Assembly: GCA_903813345.2 (NCBI GenBank)
Contig: CAIIXF020000003.1
Coordinates: 22,272,931 to 22,336,930, forward strand
Direction of reading: 5' to 3'
DNA length: 64,000 nt
DNA from: Owenia fusiformis
Lineage: Eukaryota; Annelida; Polychaeta; Sabellida; Oweniidae
Under the pieces are notes generated by a model. That model was not told where the DNA came from and made no database searches. It saw only the letters and a program-made list of their open reading frames with translations. Made by a program: the position numbers and the translations under genes. Each line of letters opens with the position of its first letter. Position 1 is the stretch's first letter. This document shows positions 36,142 to 46,445 of this stretch, piece after piece.

Positions 36142-36330
36142 CTAGAGAAAAGGAATGTGAAACCTGCGACGTAAACTAGATCGACGTTGATTTTCAAGCC
36201 GTTTGCTTTTTCTTCTCCGCCTTCCAATATTAAGAAAGTCATCATCACCATCGGAGTCTTCATCTGCGTCATCATCAGAGTCTAATTTTGTACGTGATGA
36301 GTGGGTCCACAATCCTACAGTACCATCCCA
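36142..36330 (-). CDS. DCAF11: DCAF11 last exon with acidic/basic tail
   Basis: It starts after a TTCTAG acceptor with WDGTVGLWTHSSR, the end of the last WD repeat. An Asp/Glu run (DSDDDADEDSDGDDDF) and a basic segment (GRRRRKSKRLENQRRSSLRRR) follow, with the stop at 36142-36144. The human protein has a different, Ser/Pro-rich end, so this tail is lineage-specific. A nuclear localisation signal is inferred from the basic clusters. Confidence 0.9.
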   Translation of the reverse strand, partial: WDGTVGLWTHSSRTKLDSDDDADEDSDGDDDFLNIGRRRRKSKRLENQRRSSLRRRFHIPFL

Positions 36331-39300
36331 CTAGAAACAGAAAATACATGATTATGCATATGTTTATTATATAATGTATGGTATAAATAAATTGAAAAAT
36401 ATGCATGCTTAAATAATATTACATAAGAACTCCCATAGCCGGTGACAGAAAAACTGATCCTATTCTGAGGGAGGTTTTTGTAAAAAAAATATTCAAATTC
36501 AACTAATTTTAGACTATGAGATATAAAGGAGCAACAAAGACAAGATGAGATGAGAATAACTGAATTGTAAAATGTAAAAATTCTACAGGATTTTTTGTTT
36601 TGATTACAAACATTCCAGGTCATGCCTTATTTTTCTGCAAGAAAAGATTCCTTACTTTCTGCATTTCCAAACCCAAATGTCGTTGTCGTTTGGAAAGAAC
36701 AAGACAAAGAGACAAAGGTTATTGTGATAGATTTCTTACATTTTCATTCTCTTTTCTTAGCTGCCACTTTAAATACTTACTGAAGTGCTGACAATCTTGT
36801 GTTCATAAGGGTGCCATGAGACATCTCTGACACAATTCTGATGGCCATCTTCTAATTTGGAAACTATCTCTCCAGTCAGTATATCATAGACTGAAATATA
36901 TTATAGACTGCAAAGTATCACTGATGAAAATATATGATATACTGAAATGTATCGTAGACTAAAATATATCGTAGACTGAAATGTATAATAGGGTGAAATG
37001 TATCACGTACTGAACAATAAGGCTGAATTGAGGCTTCAATATATCCTAGATGTCTTTATATTAAAGATCAAAATTTAACATAATGTTCTTCATAATTTGA
37101 AAAATTGATATTTTGACTCATAATTCTATTATTTGTCATTAAAAATTGGGGTCAACTAGATGCCAACAAACAATTTACAAGGCATTAGCATTAACATTAA
37201 CCAATCGTAACAAATCACTTCCTGGTGATTTCATAACAAAACAATAACCAGTCTCAGCTAAAATCTAGATATGCCATACAGTATACAATTTTCCCAGTCC
37301 ACATGAACTACATTAATGAAACAACTCATATTAAAGAACTTCAAGACTTACTGACGACAGATCCTGTAGCACAGCCAGTAAAAAGGTAGCGTTGCCCAGT
37401 TGTAAATGATGGAGAGAATCTACAGCGTACCAGAGTGTTCAGCACACAGTGCCCTCTATATGTCATTATGGAGGAATCACCAGGCAGTTTCTTACCAGTT
37501 TTGGCTTGTACTAAAACATGCATTTTTTCATGATGAGAAAATCTAAACTTATCCCACCCACCCAAAATTTTAGCTGAATTGAAGAATATTCAAAAGTAAA
37601 AAAAAATGTCAAGACTTTTTGGGCAACCCTTGGATATAATTTTATAGATATATCATTATAACAATCAATAAGGTTATCAATTAAAAACAAAAATAGGCAT
37701 TTCAAACAAATTTCTTTACATATTTTCATGAACTTGTATGACCTTGGTCTAGGCTCTTTCATCTTATTTCTTTATGGAAAGCTTCCAGTTAAAAGATGAG
37801 AATAAACATGTCAATGAAACTCCTACCTTTTCTAGGTACAGCCTGCCATCTATAGTCCCAATTTTGTTTTGTAACTGCCCTTCGAGATGCCTGAAAATAA
37901 TACAGATAATTTATCTAATAGATGTTAAATCCAGGCTTTATTTCATCCATTGTTGTATGGTTTTAATGCTACGACCACCATGGATGCATATGCGCAACGA
38001 TTTTTAGGTTTATGAATTCAGAATTTATGATTGAAGATACCCATGTTTTCAAAATTGGGTATTCAAAGATAATGATGCTTTAGGATTGTATACCATTAAT
38101 GAGTAGGATTTGAGAAAAAATACATGTACTTAATATCCCAGATGTGAGTAGAAATAATCTAAATTTATGTCATTAAAATTTAGAAATGTGGTTTTGAAAA
38201 GAGTTCATCAACTTTGAAAATTTTATTTTCTTTGAAAATGTGACTTCTAGGTTGGGGAGATTCCCCATAGAGCCCATGTTGTAAAACCACAAAATGTGAA
38301 ATATCTTTTCTTGTGTTGGGCAGATAATATTTTCTTTTACTGGACATATTCTAATTTGTATAACTATCAGATACATAAAGGTAATATGAAAAGTAAACCA
38401 TTAAAACTCCTGCATATTCAAGTTTAAGGGAATTTTGTAATACCATGCCATGTTAATTCCCCCGAATCAGCCACCTGGTGGCGAAACTGGTAAATACCTA
38501 CTCGCATCTGAGTCATTCAACAAGATAGAAGGGCAATACAGAGATGAGAAGCAAAACAACTAAGGCCAATATACTCATACGATTAAAAATTCTTGTTGTG
38601 TATTAAAAAACATATTTGAATCAACTGAAGACATAAACATAATGCTGACTAAGGGAAAAGATAATGCCAAGAAGGAGGAAAAAGAATATCATTCTCCAGC
38701 ACATGTGACTTAACATTTTATATCTTGTACTTACATCAATAGCTTCCTGAGATGAGAATTTACGGATATCCCATAGTTTAATGCTCTGGTCTTTACTGTT
38801 ACTGGCCAAGTATCTTGCATCACCCTGTAATGTTATAGTAAATAGCAAATCAACATTTTTAAAGGTCTTTTTGGGCAGGGTCACTATGCAATTAAACCAG
38901 CGTGTCATTAACTTAATTTTGAGAAAACTGTTGGACACAAGTAGACACGTCACATTCCCATAGAGAAGCGAAAATATGGATTAATAGTACTGCATGAAAA
39001 GAATGAGATAAGCCATAGAAAATAGGTAAACTTGGTAATAAATAGGAAAATCCATATTTGCGCTTTAAAAAAGAGACACATTTGGACCGGGTCCCTCATG
39101 AAAACAACAAAAACAAAAGTTAATGAACTTTAGTTATTTAATATATGACCAGAGATGAATCTACACAGACACAAAAAAAAACAATGTCCTTACCTTGCTT
39201 GCAATGAAGGTAATGCCATCACTATGTCCAGCTAGGGTCCCAACAGGATTGGGTGATTCTTCATTTAGAGTGCGTCTATCCCACACCTTGACCAGCCCAT

Positions 39301-42300
39301 CATCACCACCGCTATAGAGTATATGAGAAGAGTCGTCACCATAGGCAACAGCGTTGATATCATCCTCATGGGCATCAATCTGGATATAACAGAGTTGTAA
39401 TATTCATCACACTTAAATGCTATAGAGTATGTGAGAAGAGTCGTCACCATAGGCAACAGCATTGATATCACCCTCATGGGCATCAATCTGGATATAACAG
39501 AGTTGTAATATTCATCACACTTAAATGCTATAGAGTATATGAGAAGAGTCGTCACCATAGGCAACAGCATTGATATCATCCTCATGGGCATCAATCTGGA
39601 TATAACAGTGTTATAATATTTGTCACACGGAAATGCAATACTGTTTGCTACTTGGAATGCTGAGAGAAAATATATACCCACCAAACAGATGATACATTTG
39701 AAATTGTTACAGCATTGTTCAGAAAATAAATATCTTCTTTGAAATTTGTCAAATTAGAGCAGCTTAATTTTTCATATAATTTCGATACAGTACTTACTCT
39801 TAGACTCCTTTGATTGCTCTCTCTATCATATATGTATATACAACCATCATTTGCGCTGAAATTGGAAATGATAAAATATACCACAAGCAGAACAAGAACA
39901 CAAATGTGTACAACATGTCCCCATCAATGGGTGATCCTATATACTGCAATTATTTTAAATGATAAAATATACCACAAGAAGAAAAACCTGTATATATGAG
40001 CAACTTCCTAATATGAACGCTTCTTAGTGTGAACACTTTTTACATTTTTAATATACCATAGACTTCCTGGTTAAAAGACCTTAAAATGTGAGCACCTGCC
40101 TATAACAAACATTTGTAGCACAAGAATCAGCCATGAATTCCTTCATTTTATGTATTTTCAAGATATTTATTCTGAATTATGCACATTTCTGCATCAAACA
40201 AATTGACTTATTTCCAATATTAATTCAGTTATTGCTATTGTGATGATGCGCATGCATTCGATATAATACTGCAAATATATTGAAAAAATCATCAAAGTTT
40301 CTTACCCGCCTAAAATTTCTGAGTTGTCCATTGAGAAACTTAGAGAGAAGATTGCAAATCTACCATAGTTTGGTGCAAGGTGCAATGCATTATGGGTAAT
40401 ACTTTCTCCATATATGTTGCATAAATGGACTGAAAAGCAAGGTCAAAGGTCAGTTTTACAACACTCAAGAACTGACATCTATATTGTATAGGGTACAAGC
40501 AAGTAAAAGTTGTTTACCTGACTTCATGAAACCCCCAAAATAATCAGGCTTGCTGTCAAAAATGACAATCCCATATAACCCCAGATGAAAAGATATCCCT
40601 TCATTCTTTCAATCTAAAAAGTAATCACATTTCATATCGTTTCAGTGTTGCAATAATGACCAATGACTTTGCTTCTTCCCTCATATATCTTACCCTCCCA
40701 GTAACTCGTGATTGCTGTGTGAAAATTCTAAGGAGAATATTGAAAAGTTGCGATCATAATCAGTGGGCACCATGTTGAGGGCTTCATGAACAGTATGATC
40801 CCCGTAGATGTTGCATAGATGAACTGGAAGAAACACAAGGTTAACTTAGAAGCATAGAATGATACTAAAATACACCTAGGTGTCCCCTTAAGGCACCTTG
40901 ATTTACAAAGGCATATTACTCCAAGTACTCTGTGTATTTTACTACCAGTAACAAAACAATGTTTGATGTGCATGAAGTAATGAATTGGGAGAGTTTCAAA
41001 TGTTGATGTCCCTGAAGCAGAAGTAATAGAGTATAAGACAACTAGACAAAAAACATAATAAAAGGTCACTTACTACACTCAGACCAGCTGGAGTATACCA
41101 TGTAGTTACCATCAGGGCTAAAAAAAAATAAACAAAATAATACAGTATTCTGATATCTCTAAATAGTGTATACGTTATATCTTAGTACAGTAGAATCTGT
41201 CAGCCAGAACACCTTTGTAAATGGAAAATCTTATCTTATACAAAAAGTTGGAGATAACAATATATCAGCACTTCTGGTGGTGACACTTCTGACTGTGTTA
41301 ATTGCTTGCCTCTCTGTCTTCATTTAAACTGTATGTAACACAGAGTGCATGCAAAGGTAGGATGTCCCACGGAGTAGAAAGTCACACCAGAGTAGAAAGC
41401 CCTGACATTACAGTTCATTTGTAAACTCTATTTTTCTGAGAAGATTGAAATGTTCTCACCTGAATGCTGTGTCTAGGACGCTCCAACCAACATCTCTGGC
41501 AACTATTGTCTTAAACTCATCAAATTCTCCATTTAATGTAGAATATAACCTGATATTCTGATCTGAAAATAAAGATTCATCAAGATGTCAACACAAATAT
41601 TGGACAAGGCATTAACATGCAAAATGTCCTCACCTGCCATTTTTTACAGATGCCGACCAACGAACACCGTCAACAAAAAAGTTGGAGACTATAACAATAT
41701 GTCACCATTTTTGGTGGTGAGATAATAAACTTAAGGCACAGGAAGTCACCACCTGTGAAGTTACTTCAAATTGTTACAAAAGTGTAACATTTTTTACACC
41801 TGTGACCTGTGACACAGAGTCTATTATGGCCTAAAAATCCTGATGCTTTTTGCTAAACCAAGGAAGTTTGGGTATATTGACTTTTATGAAAATTTGAAAA
41901 ATATAACAAGTAATCCTATTTCTGCCTTAAACTGTAAAAATAACCGTAACAAACATAGTATGCTTTACTTGACTGGATTCATGCCAATGACCTTGACCTA
42001 CTTACCCTGGCAAGCAGACATGAAGACATTGCCATCTTTAGAGTAAGTCCCACAAAATACTTTACTCTGAAACTTGGCCACAACCTCATGATGGTTTGGG
42101 AGAAATCTGAAACATATACAAAAGCTCTTATACTCGTATATATTAAGGATATACCAGTGTAACCCTTGCGACAATGGTGATATATTTTTAAATTACAGAA
42201 ATAGAAAATTAACACCTCTATGAAAAGCTCATTTGTTAACTTCACGTTTGACAAGTGTTCTGTATTAAATATCAAGGACGCAGAATGACGATATATGACG

Positions 42301-45300
42301 CTTTACGACATTGTATTCCATAGCAACTAAGAGATTCTCATTTTCAATGTTGTTTGATCATGACGTCATATAACACTTTTGTTAATTGGTTCTCGGAATA
42401 TGATACCATTATCTGTGACGTCAGTGACATATTGCCCCATCAACAAATAAACAAACAAATGAACTGTACGTCATCAATTCTTCCAAATAATTCAGTAATT
42501 TTTTGTATATTCTTGTTTCATTCCAGTTTCGTATCCGTTTCTTTCGTTTATCCCAGCAGTATATGTGTATGTGTCCATTTATTACAAACCCGACAAATCT
42601 AATTTGTAACTTGCTTCTGATTTTGCTACAGTCTGTATGAGTTTTCATTAAGTTATAGTCTATAGCCTATGTATTGACCAGGGGTATTTAATATCAAAAG
42701 GCAACTGTAAAATACAGTATTCTATTTTGGAATTTCTATAATTCATGTATACACTTATTACATGAATCATTTGTATGTATTTCTATTGAAATCATTACCT
42801 TGTTCCGTTTTTCCTTTCTGTCAAAACAAATACCATCAAACATGTGAAACAAGCCATTCAAAATTTTGTTCAATTTATGTTATTATTCTATTTTTTTTTT
42901 AAATTATAGTTACCAGTTAAAAATATCTTCCCAGTGAGTATTAACGACCATGATCGGACATGCCGGATACAATGCGAAAAACGTCCATAGCCGTTCACAA
43001 AAACACATTATTCGTGTACTACATTCAGTAGACGTATCTTGCTCAAATCCGACATAAGTGGGGACCTCGGGGTGAGGAATGCAAAGGGAATGTACAACCC
43101 CACCCGAAAATCATCAAAAAGCACGCATGCTATATATCATGAGCGAAATCATTCATGCCTGATCTGTGAGGTTATACTTGTGAAGGCAGTTCATAAGACA
43201 GGACATGTTGAGTTTTCACAATTGTTAACCTCAAATGTAACGTTATCCTTTCCCGAAAAATGAACAGAAATATTAGCATATTAGAATAGGAGTCAATTAT
43301 GGCTATTTTTAGCCATTTTAAATCATCGTTTATTGAATGAATGTCTTACTGGGGCATCTAGCCCTCAATTTATTCATAATTTATAATATTTTGGAATGAT
43401 GTTTGTCATGCTAGTTTATGTTTTTGTGAGCCGTCGATTTTGTTAATTCTTGAGAAAGGCGTCATATATTTAGTTAAATTATGACGCGAATTGACCAGTG
43501 GCTTTTGTATCATTGTTAAAGCACACCAATCTTCAACGGCATTTTCAAGCGTAAAACAGACCGTTGACCCTATGTTTTTTTAATATCAAAATAAACAAGA
43601 GAACACCTTTTTTAGAATAAGCAAATAAAAAAAATACCACAATCCATTGGAAATTTTCGTAATTTTCGATTCAAAACGTGTCAAAATGCGAAAATGAAAA
43701 AGATATGTTTTTAATGGAAAAACGTTACAAAAATTCACAAATATTGTTGGGGTAGGGGTAACACTTTAAGTGAAAAAAGTAAGAAAAAATGTCCTGAGTG
43801 TACCAATCTTCGAACCAATATAATTATGTATAAAGGAAGTTTATCTAGGCTCGAAAAATATCGTCAATACTCCCTAGATCATCATTTTATCGATGACATA
43901 TAGGAAAATATGTTTTTTTTGCTTTGGAATCAATGGCGCCTCAAATGTTCAAATGTTGATAACGTCACACCTATTTTCAGAAGCTTCTCATGAAAAAACT
44001 AATCCGTTGACCTACCTTTTTTATTACATTTTTCGAATCGCTACATCTAGGTCTATAATAAAAACCTAGTTTCGTTGAGATTGAAAATGGTCGATTTTTT
44101 CGGAGGTTACACTGGTATATCCTTAAATACAACAATCATTGCTAGGATTACAACCTTGCATATCAAATGCATGATACATGAGCTACATACATACCCAGTA
44201 TTTATTATAATAATTAAGAAATATAGACCGAATAGCAGGGGTAATATCGGATAGGCACAAACGTTTTCTGTAACCCGAACGAAAGAAGGGAGTGAGGGGT
44301 TCGAAAGCTTTTGTGCCTAGCCCTAAGGGGTGTATTCGTTGATATTACCCCTACTCTGAGGTCTATATTACGATTCGAACATGAAAACTCACCAAAATGT
44401 TTCGAATATTGATTATGGTCCATCATTACTACGTCCCGCCGTTATGACGTCACACATCAGTTGTGTCACCAGGGGCATTATTTGGGAATATACCCCGGGT
44501 GAAATGTTGACTTTGTTCACAGTTTATAGAAGGTGTGAAGTCATGTTCGAATACATTATACATACTACATGTAAAAAACATACATACCCAGTATTTATGA
44601 TGCAACAATCTCCAGGCGAAAATCGTTGTTTCCCACGCATTCCTACTTCTCTCTAAAAACATAAATAAAATGTTGTTTAGTATACAAGCCAATATCCAAA
44701 CCTCGACTTTTTCTACCAAGTGATCTCTTTTTTAGTTTATTCATTTTCTAATATTTTGGTTCTTTGCCAAAGTTTGCCAAGTTGCATGATATTTGCAACT
44801 GTATTAAGAAAATATGTAGCATATTTTCATTTTTTTACCTTTTGTAACATCTGAGGAAGTGTTGTTTTTTGGCCATAGGGAAATTTCTGTCTTCTCCCAG
44901 AGCTCATGAGCAATTCCTGCTTTAGTTCATGCATCTGAAAATATTATGTCATCCAATAATGGTCCTTTAATTTTGGGCAACATTTTAAAGCAATTTTCAT
45001 TTTTGAGCAATTTTTCAATTTTTCACATCCTTTTACTGACAAAATTGCTAAATAGTCCATCTTCTTAAAATACCAGACCTGTGACCCAGCATAAGGTCCA
45101 TTAAGAATTGATTCCATATATAACCTAACAGTAACTACAGTTAACTGATAAACATAAATTACAACTGCGTGTTGCATTATTCTTTTTTTAATAAGTTAGG
45201 ATAATTAATAAAGCTCACATTTATCCTGGATGGGCGTTACTGCCATTTAATATGAGTACATGTACATACATGTATTATAAACAGATTATATTAAAGATGC

Positions 45301-46445
45301 ATGCATGAAATAAGTTTTGACTTACATCTATATTGCTGGTATCAGGATTCGATTCAGCTGGAATCAGAGAGAATGCAAAGCTGTTGATATTAAAACAAGA
45401 TTTATATGTGATATTTATTTGCTAATTAATTATTTGGATAATGACCTATGCATATTCAAAAATGTGAGTTTGCATATTTTCTGATCTAAAAGAAAAATTG
45501 CACCAATAAAAAACAGATACAGGGAGACACATTGAGTTTAGAAGATTATTTCAAATACAATGAGTAATTTTAAAGATCAACTGTTTTTACAAAAGTTATC
45601 TGCCCAACTATTTTTATCAATAATTTTATTTCCTAAAACTCACCTTTAGGACGCTCATGTCCAAAGTTGTCTATATCCCCCATATCATCTTCTTCATCCT
45701 CCTCATTCTCCATGTCATCCTCCCCATAGACTGATGGCATCAATCGTACCTGACCACTGAAAATAAACAGAGTTAAAAATCTAGTCCTCCAAATTCCATG
45801 ATTATAGTATAACACTCTTATACACATGGGGTAACTTAGTCCTGGGGCTACTCAACCATGTGGTTATTTCCACCTTGACTTATATTTGAATTCATGCATG
45901 TTTGGTTATGAAAGCTGATCCATCATCCACTATACATTGAAAAACAAGAGAGAAGTACTAGAAACGACCCATGGTTTCACTCATCTGGGAAGCTGTAGTG
46001 TAACAAGCCTGGGATACTAGACCTGAAAGGGAGTGTGTCACATGTCATTTTCATTTCCTGTTTACATTTCTGAAAGCTACCCCAACACCTTAAATTTTGA
46101 AACTTTGATCGATTGATGAATGAAGATAAATTAGAATGATGTGAATAGTTACAGGAGCAAAATCAACCCCAATACATTGAACGAGATCTCCCATAGTTTG
46201 AGACGGCTGCCTTACGACCCGCCTTACGACAATGGAGATCTCGAAAACATGCTCTGAAAAGAAAGAAGTAGGTCTTACCTTCTGATCAAATAGCTCAGAA
46301 TTGTTGCCAAATCATCAGTGCCCTCTGCTCCTTCCCCATCTGAAGTGGTTGGGGCATCTTCTGAAGTCGTCTGTGCACCCTCGTCTGACATATTCCTTGA
46401 CCTCCCAGACCCTCGGCGTTGACTAATGGAAAGTCGAGAACCCAT
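36142..46445 (-). CDS. DCAF11: DDB1- and CUL4-associated factor 11 (WD40 protein), 16 exon positions
   Basis: DCAF11 is a substrate receptor that docks on DDB1 in CUL4 E3 ubiquitin ligases. Exons in transcript order are 46445-46279, 45756-45644, 45357-45326, 44934-44839, 44652-44588, 42106-42006, 41562-41460, 41117-41074, then either 40823-40694 or 40429-40306. They continue 39855-39798, 39379-39194, 38824-38735, 37890-37827, 37510-37352, 36890-36781 and 36330-36142. With either exon 9 the total divides by three (566 or 568 aa; human 546). The start MGSR matches human. Conserved blocks are GQVRLMPS, FCGTYSKDGNVFMSACQ, ARDVGWSVLDTAF, HEDDINAVAYGDDSS, SNSKDQSIKLWDIRKFSS, QNWDYRWQ, LPGDSSIMTYRGH and NCVRDVSWHP. 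DWD-box candidates are KVWDRR and KLWDIR. The tail is acidic then basic (DSDDDADEDSDGDDD, GRRRRKSKR), a likely nuclear signal. Confidence 0.95.
36891..37020 (-). repeat. Degenerate ~19-bp repeats copying the exon 15 acceptor
   Basis: On the plus strand, words like ATCATAGACTGAAATATA recur: TTATAGACTGC, GATATACTGAAATGTATC, GTAGACTAAAATATATC, GTAGACTGAAATGTAT. On the coding (minus) strand each reads as TTTCAG followed by TCTA, i.e. a copy of the exon 15 splice acceptor at 36890/36891. The array lies just upstream of the true acceptor and presents several decoy 3' splice sites. Confidence 0.7.
39194..39379 (-). CDS. DCAF11: DCAF11 exon 11, WD repeat HEDDINAV...FIASK
   Basis: Sixty-two codons, phase 0 at both ends. 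It encodes IDAHEDDINAVAYGDDSS, ILYSGGDDGLVKVWDRRT and GTLAGHSDGITFIASK, closely matching human (HEDDVNAVAFADISSQ, FSGGDDAICKVWDRRT, GHQDGITFIDSK). The KVWDRR segment is a DWD-box candidate for DDB1 contact. The first 70 bases and the preceding acceptor are duplicated twice more just upstream (see 39296-39620). Confidence 0.93.
39296..39620 (-). repeat. 108-bp tandem triplication covering exon 11 head and its acceptor
   Basis: The shared words start every 108 bp; GGCATCAATC is at 39371, 39479 and 39587. Each unit holds intron end, TATATCCAG acceptor and the first ~70 coding bases (GATGCCCATGAGG through CTCTATAG on the minus strand). Only the copy nearest the exon body continues in frame. Using an upstream acceptor would read into ATT-TAA within the next unit's intron part, so the extra copies are decoys or poison exons. 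Copies differ at only a few sites, pointing to a recent duplication. Confidence 0.9.
40306..40429 (-). CDS. DCAF11: DCAF11 alternative exon 9 (downstream version)
   Basis: Acceptor TTTTCAG/TCC, donor GGCGG/GTAAG. Entered in phase 1 and left in phase 2, it reads IHLCNIYGESITHNALHLAP, NYGRFAIFSLSF, SMDNSEILGG. It aligns without gaps to the human stretch HICNIYGEGDTHTALDLRP...VLGG (41 residues). It replaces, and cannot follow, the exon at 40694-40823, since using both breaks the frame. This version is closer to the vertebrate protein, so it is probably the ancestral type. Confidence 0.92.
40694..40823 (-). CDS. DCAF11: DCAF11 alternative exon 9 (upstream version)
   Basis: Acceptor TTCCAG/TTC, donor GGGAGG/GTAAG, with the same entry and exit phases as the other version. 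It reads IHLCNIYGDHTVHEALNMVP, TDYDRNFSIFSLEF, SHSNHELLGG. It is two codons longer and differs at roughly half of positions from the 40306-40429 version. It keeps the HLCNIYG start, the F-IFSL core and the LGG end, so it looks selected for function and not decayed. The 264-bp intron between the two is short. Confidence 0.92.
41608..41735. repeat. Dispersed repeat family R1, copy in DCAF11 intron
   Basis: Same block order as 6806-6963 (AGGCATTAAC, GCAAAATGTCC, CACCTGCCAT, TTACAGA, AAAAAAGTTGGAGACTATAA, CAATATGTCA, GGTGGTGA). A shorter fragment is at 41243-41290. It lies between DCAF11 exons 6 and 7. Confidence 0.55.
42107..44587 (-). other. DCAF11: Largest DCAF11 intron (between exons 5 and 6)
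   Basis: About 2.5 kb without supported coding sequence. It holds the palindromic MITE at about 44218-44372. A short duplicate of the exon 5 donor side (ACATACATACCCAGTATTTA) lies near 44186-44206, matching 44579-44598. Between about 42.9 and 44.1 kb the base composition is slightly less AT-rich and CpG more frequent than elsewhere, but no element is recognised. Confidence 0.5.
44218..44372. mobile_element. Diverged palindromic MITE related to 7726-7884
   Basis: Left words AATATAGACC, AGGGGTAATATC and TAGGCACAAA are mirrored at the right (TTTTGTGCCTA, GATATTACCCCT, GGTCTATATT). Like the 7.7 kb copy it is preceded by ATTAAG and followed by CGATTC-AACAT. Arms are more diverged than in the 7.7 kb copy. 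Confidence 0.6.
46279..46445 (-). CDS. DCAF11: DCAF11 first coding exon
   Basis: The ATG at 46445-46443 opens MGSRLSISQRRGSGRSR, and the exon ends with TDDLATILSYLIR at donor AG/GTAAG. The MGSR start and the following Ser/Gly/Arg-rich then acidic segment fit the human N-terminus. LATILSYLIRSGQVRL after splicing matches human LAQVLAYLLRRGQVRL. The promoter and any untranslated exon upstream could not be located; transposons begin at 46898. Confidence 0.92.

Follow-up and report, generated by a model that had tools for sequence, protein, structure and literature searches.

Mutually exclusive exons (MXEs) form a known general class, represented by a human atlas (PMC5740500) and a set of tandem exon substitutions (PMC9741552), and the main texts of these two papers contain no mention of WD40 or DCAF/DCAF11. 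A mutually exclusive pair in a WD40-repeat protein was described for coronin-1D, in which exons 5a and 5b code for part of the coronin domain and one of the two resembles the single-exon relatives more closely (PMC3203266). The CUL4 receptor DCAF11/WDR23 has been linked to the turnover of NRF2/SKN-1 and has been put to use in targeted degradation (PMC6692315, PMC13373504). Its described isoforms include human isoforms 1 and 2, which differ at residues 45-70 (PMC13373504), and WDR-23A and WDR-23B of C. elegans, which differ in the N-terminal region (PMC6692315). According to PMC13373504, an experimental structure of DCAF11 had yet to be reported; the PDB does contain one under the entry 9ptu.

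The window analysed here (the whole stretch of 64,000 nt of Owenia fusiformis DNA, to which all positions refer) carries a DCAF11/WDR23 gene in which one internal exon has probably been duplicated in tandem, with either version A or version B of the same WD40 segment entering each productive mRNA. Mutually exclusive use of A and B was the best reading of the sequence. The pair resembled the MXE class in its adjacent homologous internal exons with the same phases, in the frame incompatibility of joint inclusion and in a moderate protein divergence with a conserved core (PMC5740500, PMC9741552); unlike the members of that class, it is predicted from sequence alone. As in coronin-1D, the pair lies in a WD40-repeat protein and one copy is closer to single-exon relatives, whereas coronin-1D is actin-related, has its pair reported in tetrapods and is not a CUL4 receptor (PMC3203266). 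The human and C. elegans isoforms likewise come from this same gene and have partly different roles, but their differences concern localisation and the N-terminal part (PMC13373504, PMC6692315), whereas the difference predicted here falls in the propeller. A search of the open-licence literature, which is without most subscription papers and bioRxiv preprints, found no report of an exchangeable propeller exon in DCAF11, in agreement with the statement in the earlier note that no such pair is known from vertebrate DCAF11.

The gene is DCAF11/WDR23 by full-length similarity. In a search of the PDB, residues 1-521 of the product matched chain 9ptu_A with an E value of 1e-185, and the second-best match was a generic WD-40 protein (6.7e-45). 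The molecule name of 9ptu_A in the PDB is DDB1- and CUL4-associated factor 11, which we take to be the human protein. The coding model on the minus strand comprised 16 exons per isoform and 17 in total (Table 1). The conserved WDxR motif stated for DCAF11 (PMC13373504) was present in the predicted protein as a putative DDB1-binding motif, and the WDRR and WDIR of isoform B were aligned to the WDRR and WDIR of 9ptu_A. The genome searched comprised 498 Mb in 525 contigs, and a search with 285 residues of isoform B found no second DCAF11 locus in it. This search produced 14 matches, of which 10 were in the DCAF11 gene; the remaining four, at other loci, were weak matches to WD40 sequence with E values from 7.5e-6 to 9.9e-4. 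The peptide of exon A, searched against the genome up to an E value of 10, matched exons A and B only, both in the DCAF11 gene. A paralogue or retrocopy, from which exon A might have come or which might have pointed indirectly to transcription, was rejected since the genome searches showed none. Finally, a scan of viral and prokaryote contig collections for DCAF11 produced 7 and 30 pattern matches, respectively, with 0 relatives by tblastn, as expected of such DNA.

Table 1. Features of the DCAF11/WDR23 gene and of the alternative exon pair (positions in the window).
Feature	Position	Strand	Description
DCAF11/WDR23 gene	36142..46445	minus	coding exons 1-16, alternative pair at position 9
Constitutive exon 8	41074..41117	minus	44 nt, donor GTA/gtaagt, exit phase 1
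Exon A	40694..40823	minus	130 nt, phase 1 to 2, more diverged version
A-B intron	40430..40693	minus	264 nt, branch-point-like CTGAC at 40453
Exon B	40306..40429	minus	124 nt, phase 1 to 2, canonical version
TGCATG motif	40251..40256	minus	about 50 nt downstream of the B donor
Constitutive exon 10	39798..39855	minus	58 nt, entry phase 2
Constitutive exon 11	39194..39379	minus	contains VWDRR (residue 334 in isoform B)
Constitutive exon 12	38735..38824	minus	contains LWDIR (residue 381 in isoform B)

Exons A and B are homologous internal exons lying next to each other; their phases are the same and their lengths similar. The earlier note had placed the splice boundaries of the region at 41074, 40823, 40694, 40429, 40306 and 39855, and these were found to be correct together with their GT-AG sites and phases. 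Its prediction that including both exons or neither would break the frame also held, as the reading frame ran into a stop after 296 aa with both exons and after 258 aa with neither; the summed length of A and B is 254 nt, which is not divisible by three. Owing to this frame incompatibility, joined or skipped mRNAs would be non-productive. Either exon alone gave a complete open protein, as had been proposed, with lengths of 566 aa (A alone) and 564 aa (B alone) in place of the claimed 568 and 566 aa. The claimed lengths are explained, by arithmetic only, by an alternative AG for exon 14 located six bases upstream, before TACAAG. Exon 14 has two candidate acceptors at this place (37505-37510, six bases apart), the choice between which would add or drop two residues. 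The acceptor used in the model was chosen because it aligns gap-free to 9ptu_A, and its score was low (2.8).

Splice sites were scored in a leave-one-out manner with a score built from the other introns of the gene, a training set of only 15 donors and 15 acceptors. On this scale the donors of A and B scored 11.0 and 9.5, respectively, within a range of 5.3 to 11.3 for the other introns of the gene, and the acceptors scored 7.2 and 5.8 within a range of 0.6 to 12.0. Among the candidate sites of the gene, exon A ranked 3/589 for its donor and 19/526 for its acceptor, and exon B ranked 10/589 and 33/526. The view that both versions look functional was sustained in so far as both are splice-competent by sequence, phase-matched and frame-exclusive, and the more diverged copy, A, shows constraint as coding sequence.

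Exon B is the canonical version. It aligned to 9ptu_A without gaps and with 23/40 identical residues (24/41 over 41 columns), and exon A had 19/40 identical residues (20/41 when the final, shared glycine is counted) as well as two additional residues. Of the 23 residues common to B and 9ptu_A, 18 were retained in A. Between A and B, 24/40 residues were identical and 30/40 were identical or similar (BLOSUM62 above 0), and the proportion of differing residues, previously put at about half, was in fact about 40% (16/40 aligned positions and two residues present only in A). The three-way comparison showed 10 sites at which A, B and 9ptu_A all differ and 6 sites at which A and B agree against 9ptu_A. 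The propeller outside the exchanged segment was identical to 9ptu_A at 204/297 positions, and so, compared with the 24/41 of B, both versions of the segment are less conserved than the remaining propeller. Exon A was below every other 41-column stretch of the propeller, for which the minimum was 21/41 and the median 28 over 216 overlapping windows. The Pfam WD40 scores of the two isoforms were near-equal with 117.6 bits for isoform B and 115.7 bits for isoform A. By general WD40 anatomy, the segment would run from the last part of one blade across the linker into the first strands of the following blade, and the two residues peculiar to A would lie in this linker. 9ptu_A matches B and contains no A-like segment; as the comparison is with a single protein chain, it is compatible with an alternative exon in the gene of 9ptu_A.

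Over the 40 aligned codons, A and B differed at 50/120 nucleotides, with 17, 9 and 24 differences at codon positions 1, 2 and 3, respectively. A comparison of substitutions between the versions, as had been suggested, gave a pN of 0.29 against a saturated pS of 0.90 (Nei-Gojobori counts). When 50 random changes were placed on B, a stop appeared in 90% of 20000 runs and the observed identity was never reached. This result could reflect constraint on B only and therefore a two-branch null was run, in which B changes at synonymous sites only and A drifts freely for an equal time. A run was counted as a match when A was free of stops, differed from B at 24 or more third positions and shared 24 or more residues with it. 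The null started from B, allowed no amino-acid change in B and disregarded the length difference of two codons; each of these choices works in favour of the null. Nine times between 0.1 and 1.5 were simulated, and 0/3000 runs matched at every one of them. Identity was kept by all runs at time 0.1, by 72% at 0.2 and by 16% at 0.3, so that a young duplicate kept its identity without the third-position divergence while an old duplicate had the divergence with its identity lost. Rejection of free drift indicates that A has been maintained as coding sequence of DCAF11 through most of its history. Overall, both exons appear to have been under coding constraint over their history, and A reads as an old duplicate that was constrained for most of it, which is not proof of present use.

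The rejection of free drift is compatible with A having recently fallen out of use. It is unlikely, however, that A was long a working alternative which is now skipped, with B alone being used. Such a history would fit the more diverged state of A, which has 5 unique departures from 9ptu_A against 1 in B (small numbers), as well as its match to 9ptu_A below every comparable stretch of the propeller, but A has no stop or frameshift and its donor and acceptor are good sites that both rank ahead of those of B. A role for A as a poison exon was judged very unlikely. The normal mRNA would then contain B without A, and transcripts that take in both exons would reduce DCAF11 output through NMD, with A making no protein of its own. 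Unproductive splicing is a common way of tuning expression, and the stop of the A+B transcript is indeed followed by many exons downstream. However, a poison exon need not retain 18 of the 23 positions at which B equals 9ptu_A, nor need it hold second-position changes to 9/40 against 24/40 at third positions.

An error of assembly or of recent duplication as the origin of the second exon is extremely unlikely. A recent tandem array does adjoin the pair at 39311-39640, but 50 differences in 120 nucleotides are far above allele or read error and the remainder of the DCAF11 gene is single in the genome.

Under mutually exclusive use of A and B, both exon versions would be used in vivo and the choice between them would be set by trans-acting factors. 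Exclusion would be enforced mainly through the frame, as transcripts with both exons or neither would be out of frame and degraded by NMD. Intron length, splice-site type and exact intron complementarity revealed no dedicated exclusion device. Both A and B had GT-AG sites of U2 look. The criterion for steric interference between MXEs is a distance of less than 50 bp from donor to branch point (PMC5740500). The A-B intron is 264 nt long with CTGAC, a candidate branch point by sequence, 23 nt before its 3' end, and a steric block between A and B therefore appears unlikely. The longest exact complement among the three introns was 9 nt (exact Watson-Crick runs in one genome), which leaves a docking-site mechanism without support here. 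A single TGCATG site, an RBFOX-type motif, was present in the three introns, with about 0.08 expected per 200 nt and as one of five motifs scanned; as a regulatory site downstream of B it is a lead only.

Both isoforms keep WDRR and WDIR and would form the same CUL4 ligase, since the two motifs are in constitutive exons 11 and 12 and DDB1 binding would thus be common to both. The isoforms would differ in one stretch of the propeller, giving another local surface and possibly another substrate preference, and we infer that the A/B swap may alter substrate choice or stability. A propeller splice switch of this kind, if used, would serve as a natural experiment on the residues that set the substrate choice of DCAF11, and would bring a ubiquitin-ligase receptor into the group of proteins regulated by exon swapping.

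The identities among the three sequences were near-equal (24 for A and B, 23 for B and 9ptu_A and 19 for A and 9ptu_A, each of 40). They are compatible with an old duplication, either in the lineage of this animal or at about the time of its split from vertebrates. Residual homology around A and B was limited to 9- and 10-nt matches beyond the exon starts, and a 19-nt match (17/19) between the two stretches was the start of the exons themselves. It is doubtful, though conceivable, that an old duplication, perhaps of the age of the animal's phylum or older, provides two alternative propeller faces and that splicing rewires the targets of DCAF11 (e.g. stress-response factors) by tissue.

Several repeats and inserts were also identified in the gene. 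The tandem array at 39311-39640 (minus strand) had a period of 108, 3.1 copies and 94% matches. Within it, the acceptor and the first 69 nt of exon 11 were copied twice upstream, with starts at 39595 and 39487 compared to 39379 for the true exon. A transcript spliced to either upstream copy of the acceptor, and not spliced further, would run into a stop directly after SSHILYSI. The array resembles a recent duplication by which two decoy acceptors were created. A short dispersed repeat at approximately 39871-39962, 85-97% identical at dozens of the genome places scored, ended a few tens of bases upstream of the exon 10 acceptor. Intron 5 contained an insert of about 2 kb (42143-44126) whose terminal inverted repeats are 22 nt long and perfect. 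When 1851 bases of this insert were searched against the genome, at least 48 matches including itself were obtained (40 of 186 candidates scored), many of them nearly full length with 89-94% identity among the candidates scored, and the insert looks like a member of a DNA-transposon family. In addition, the 3' end of exon 5 and its donor were copied within intron 5 (44185-44208 and 44578-44601), the copies of 24 nt being 96% identical and 393 nt apart.
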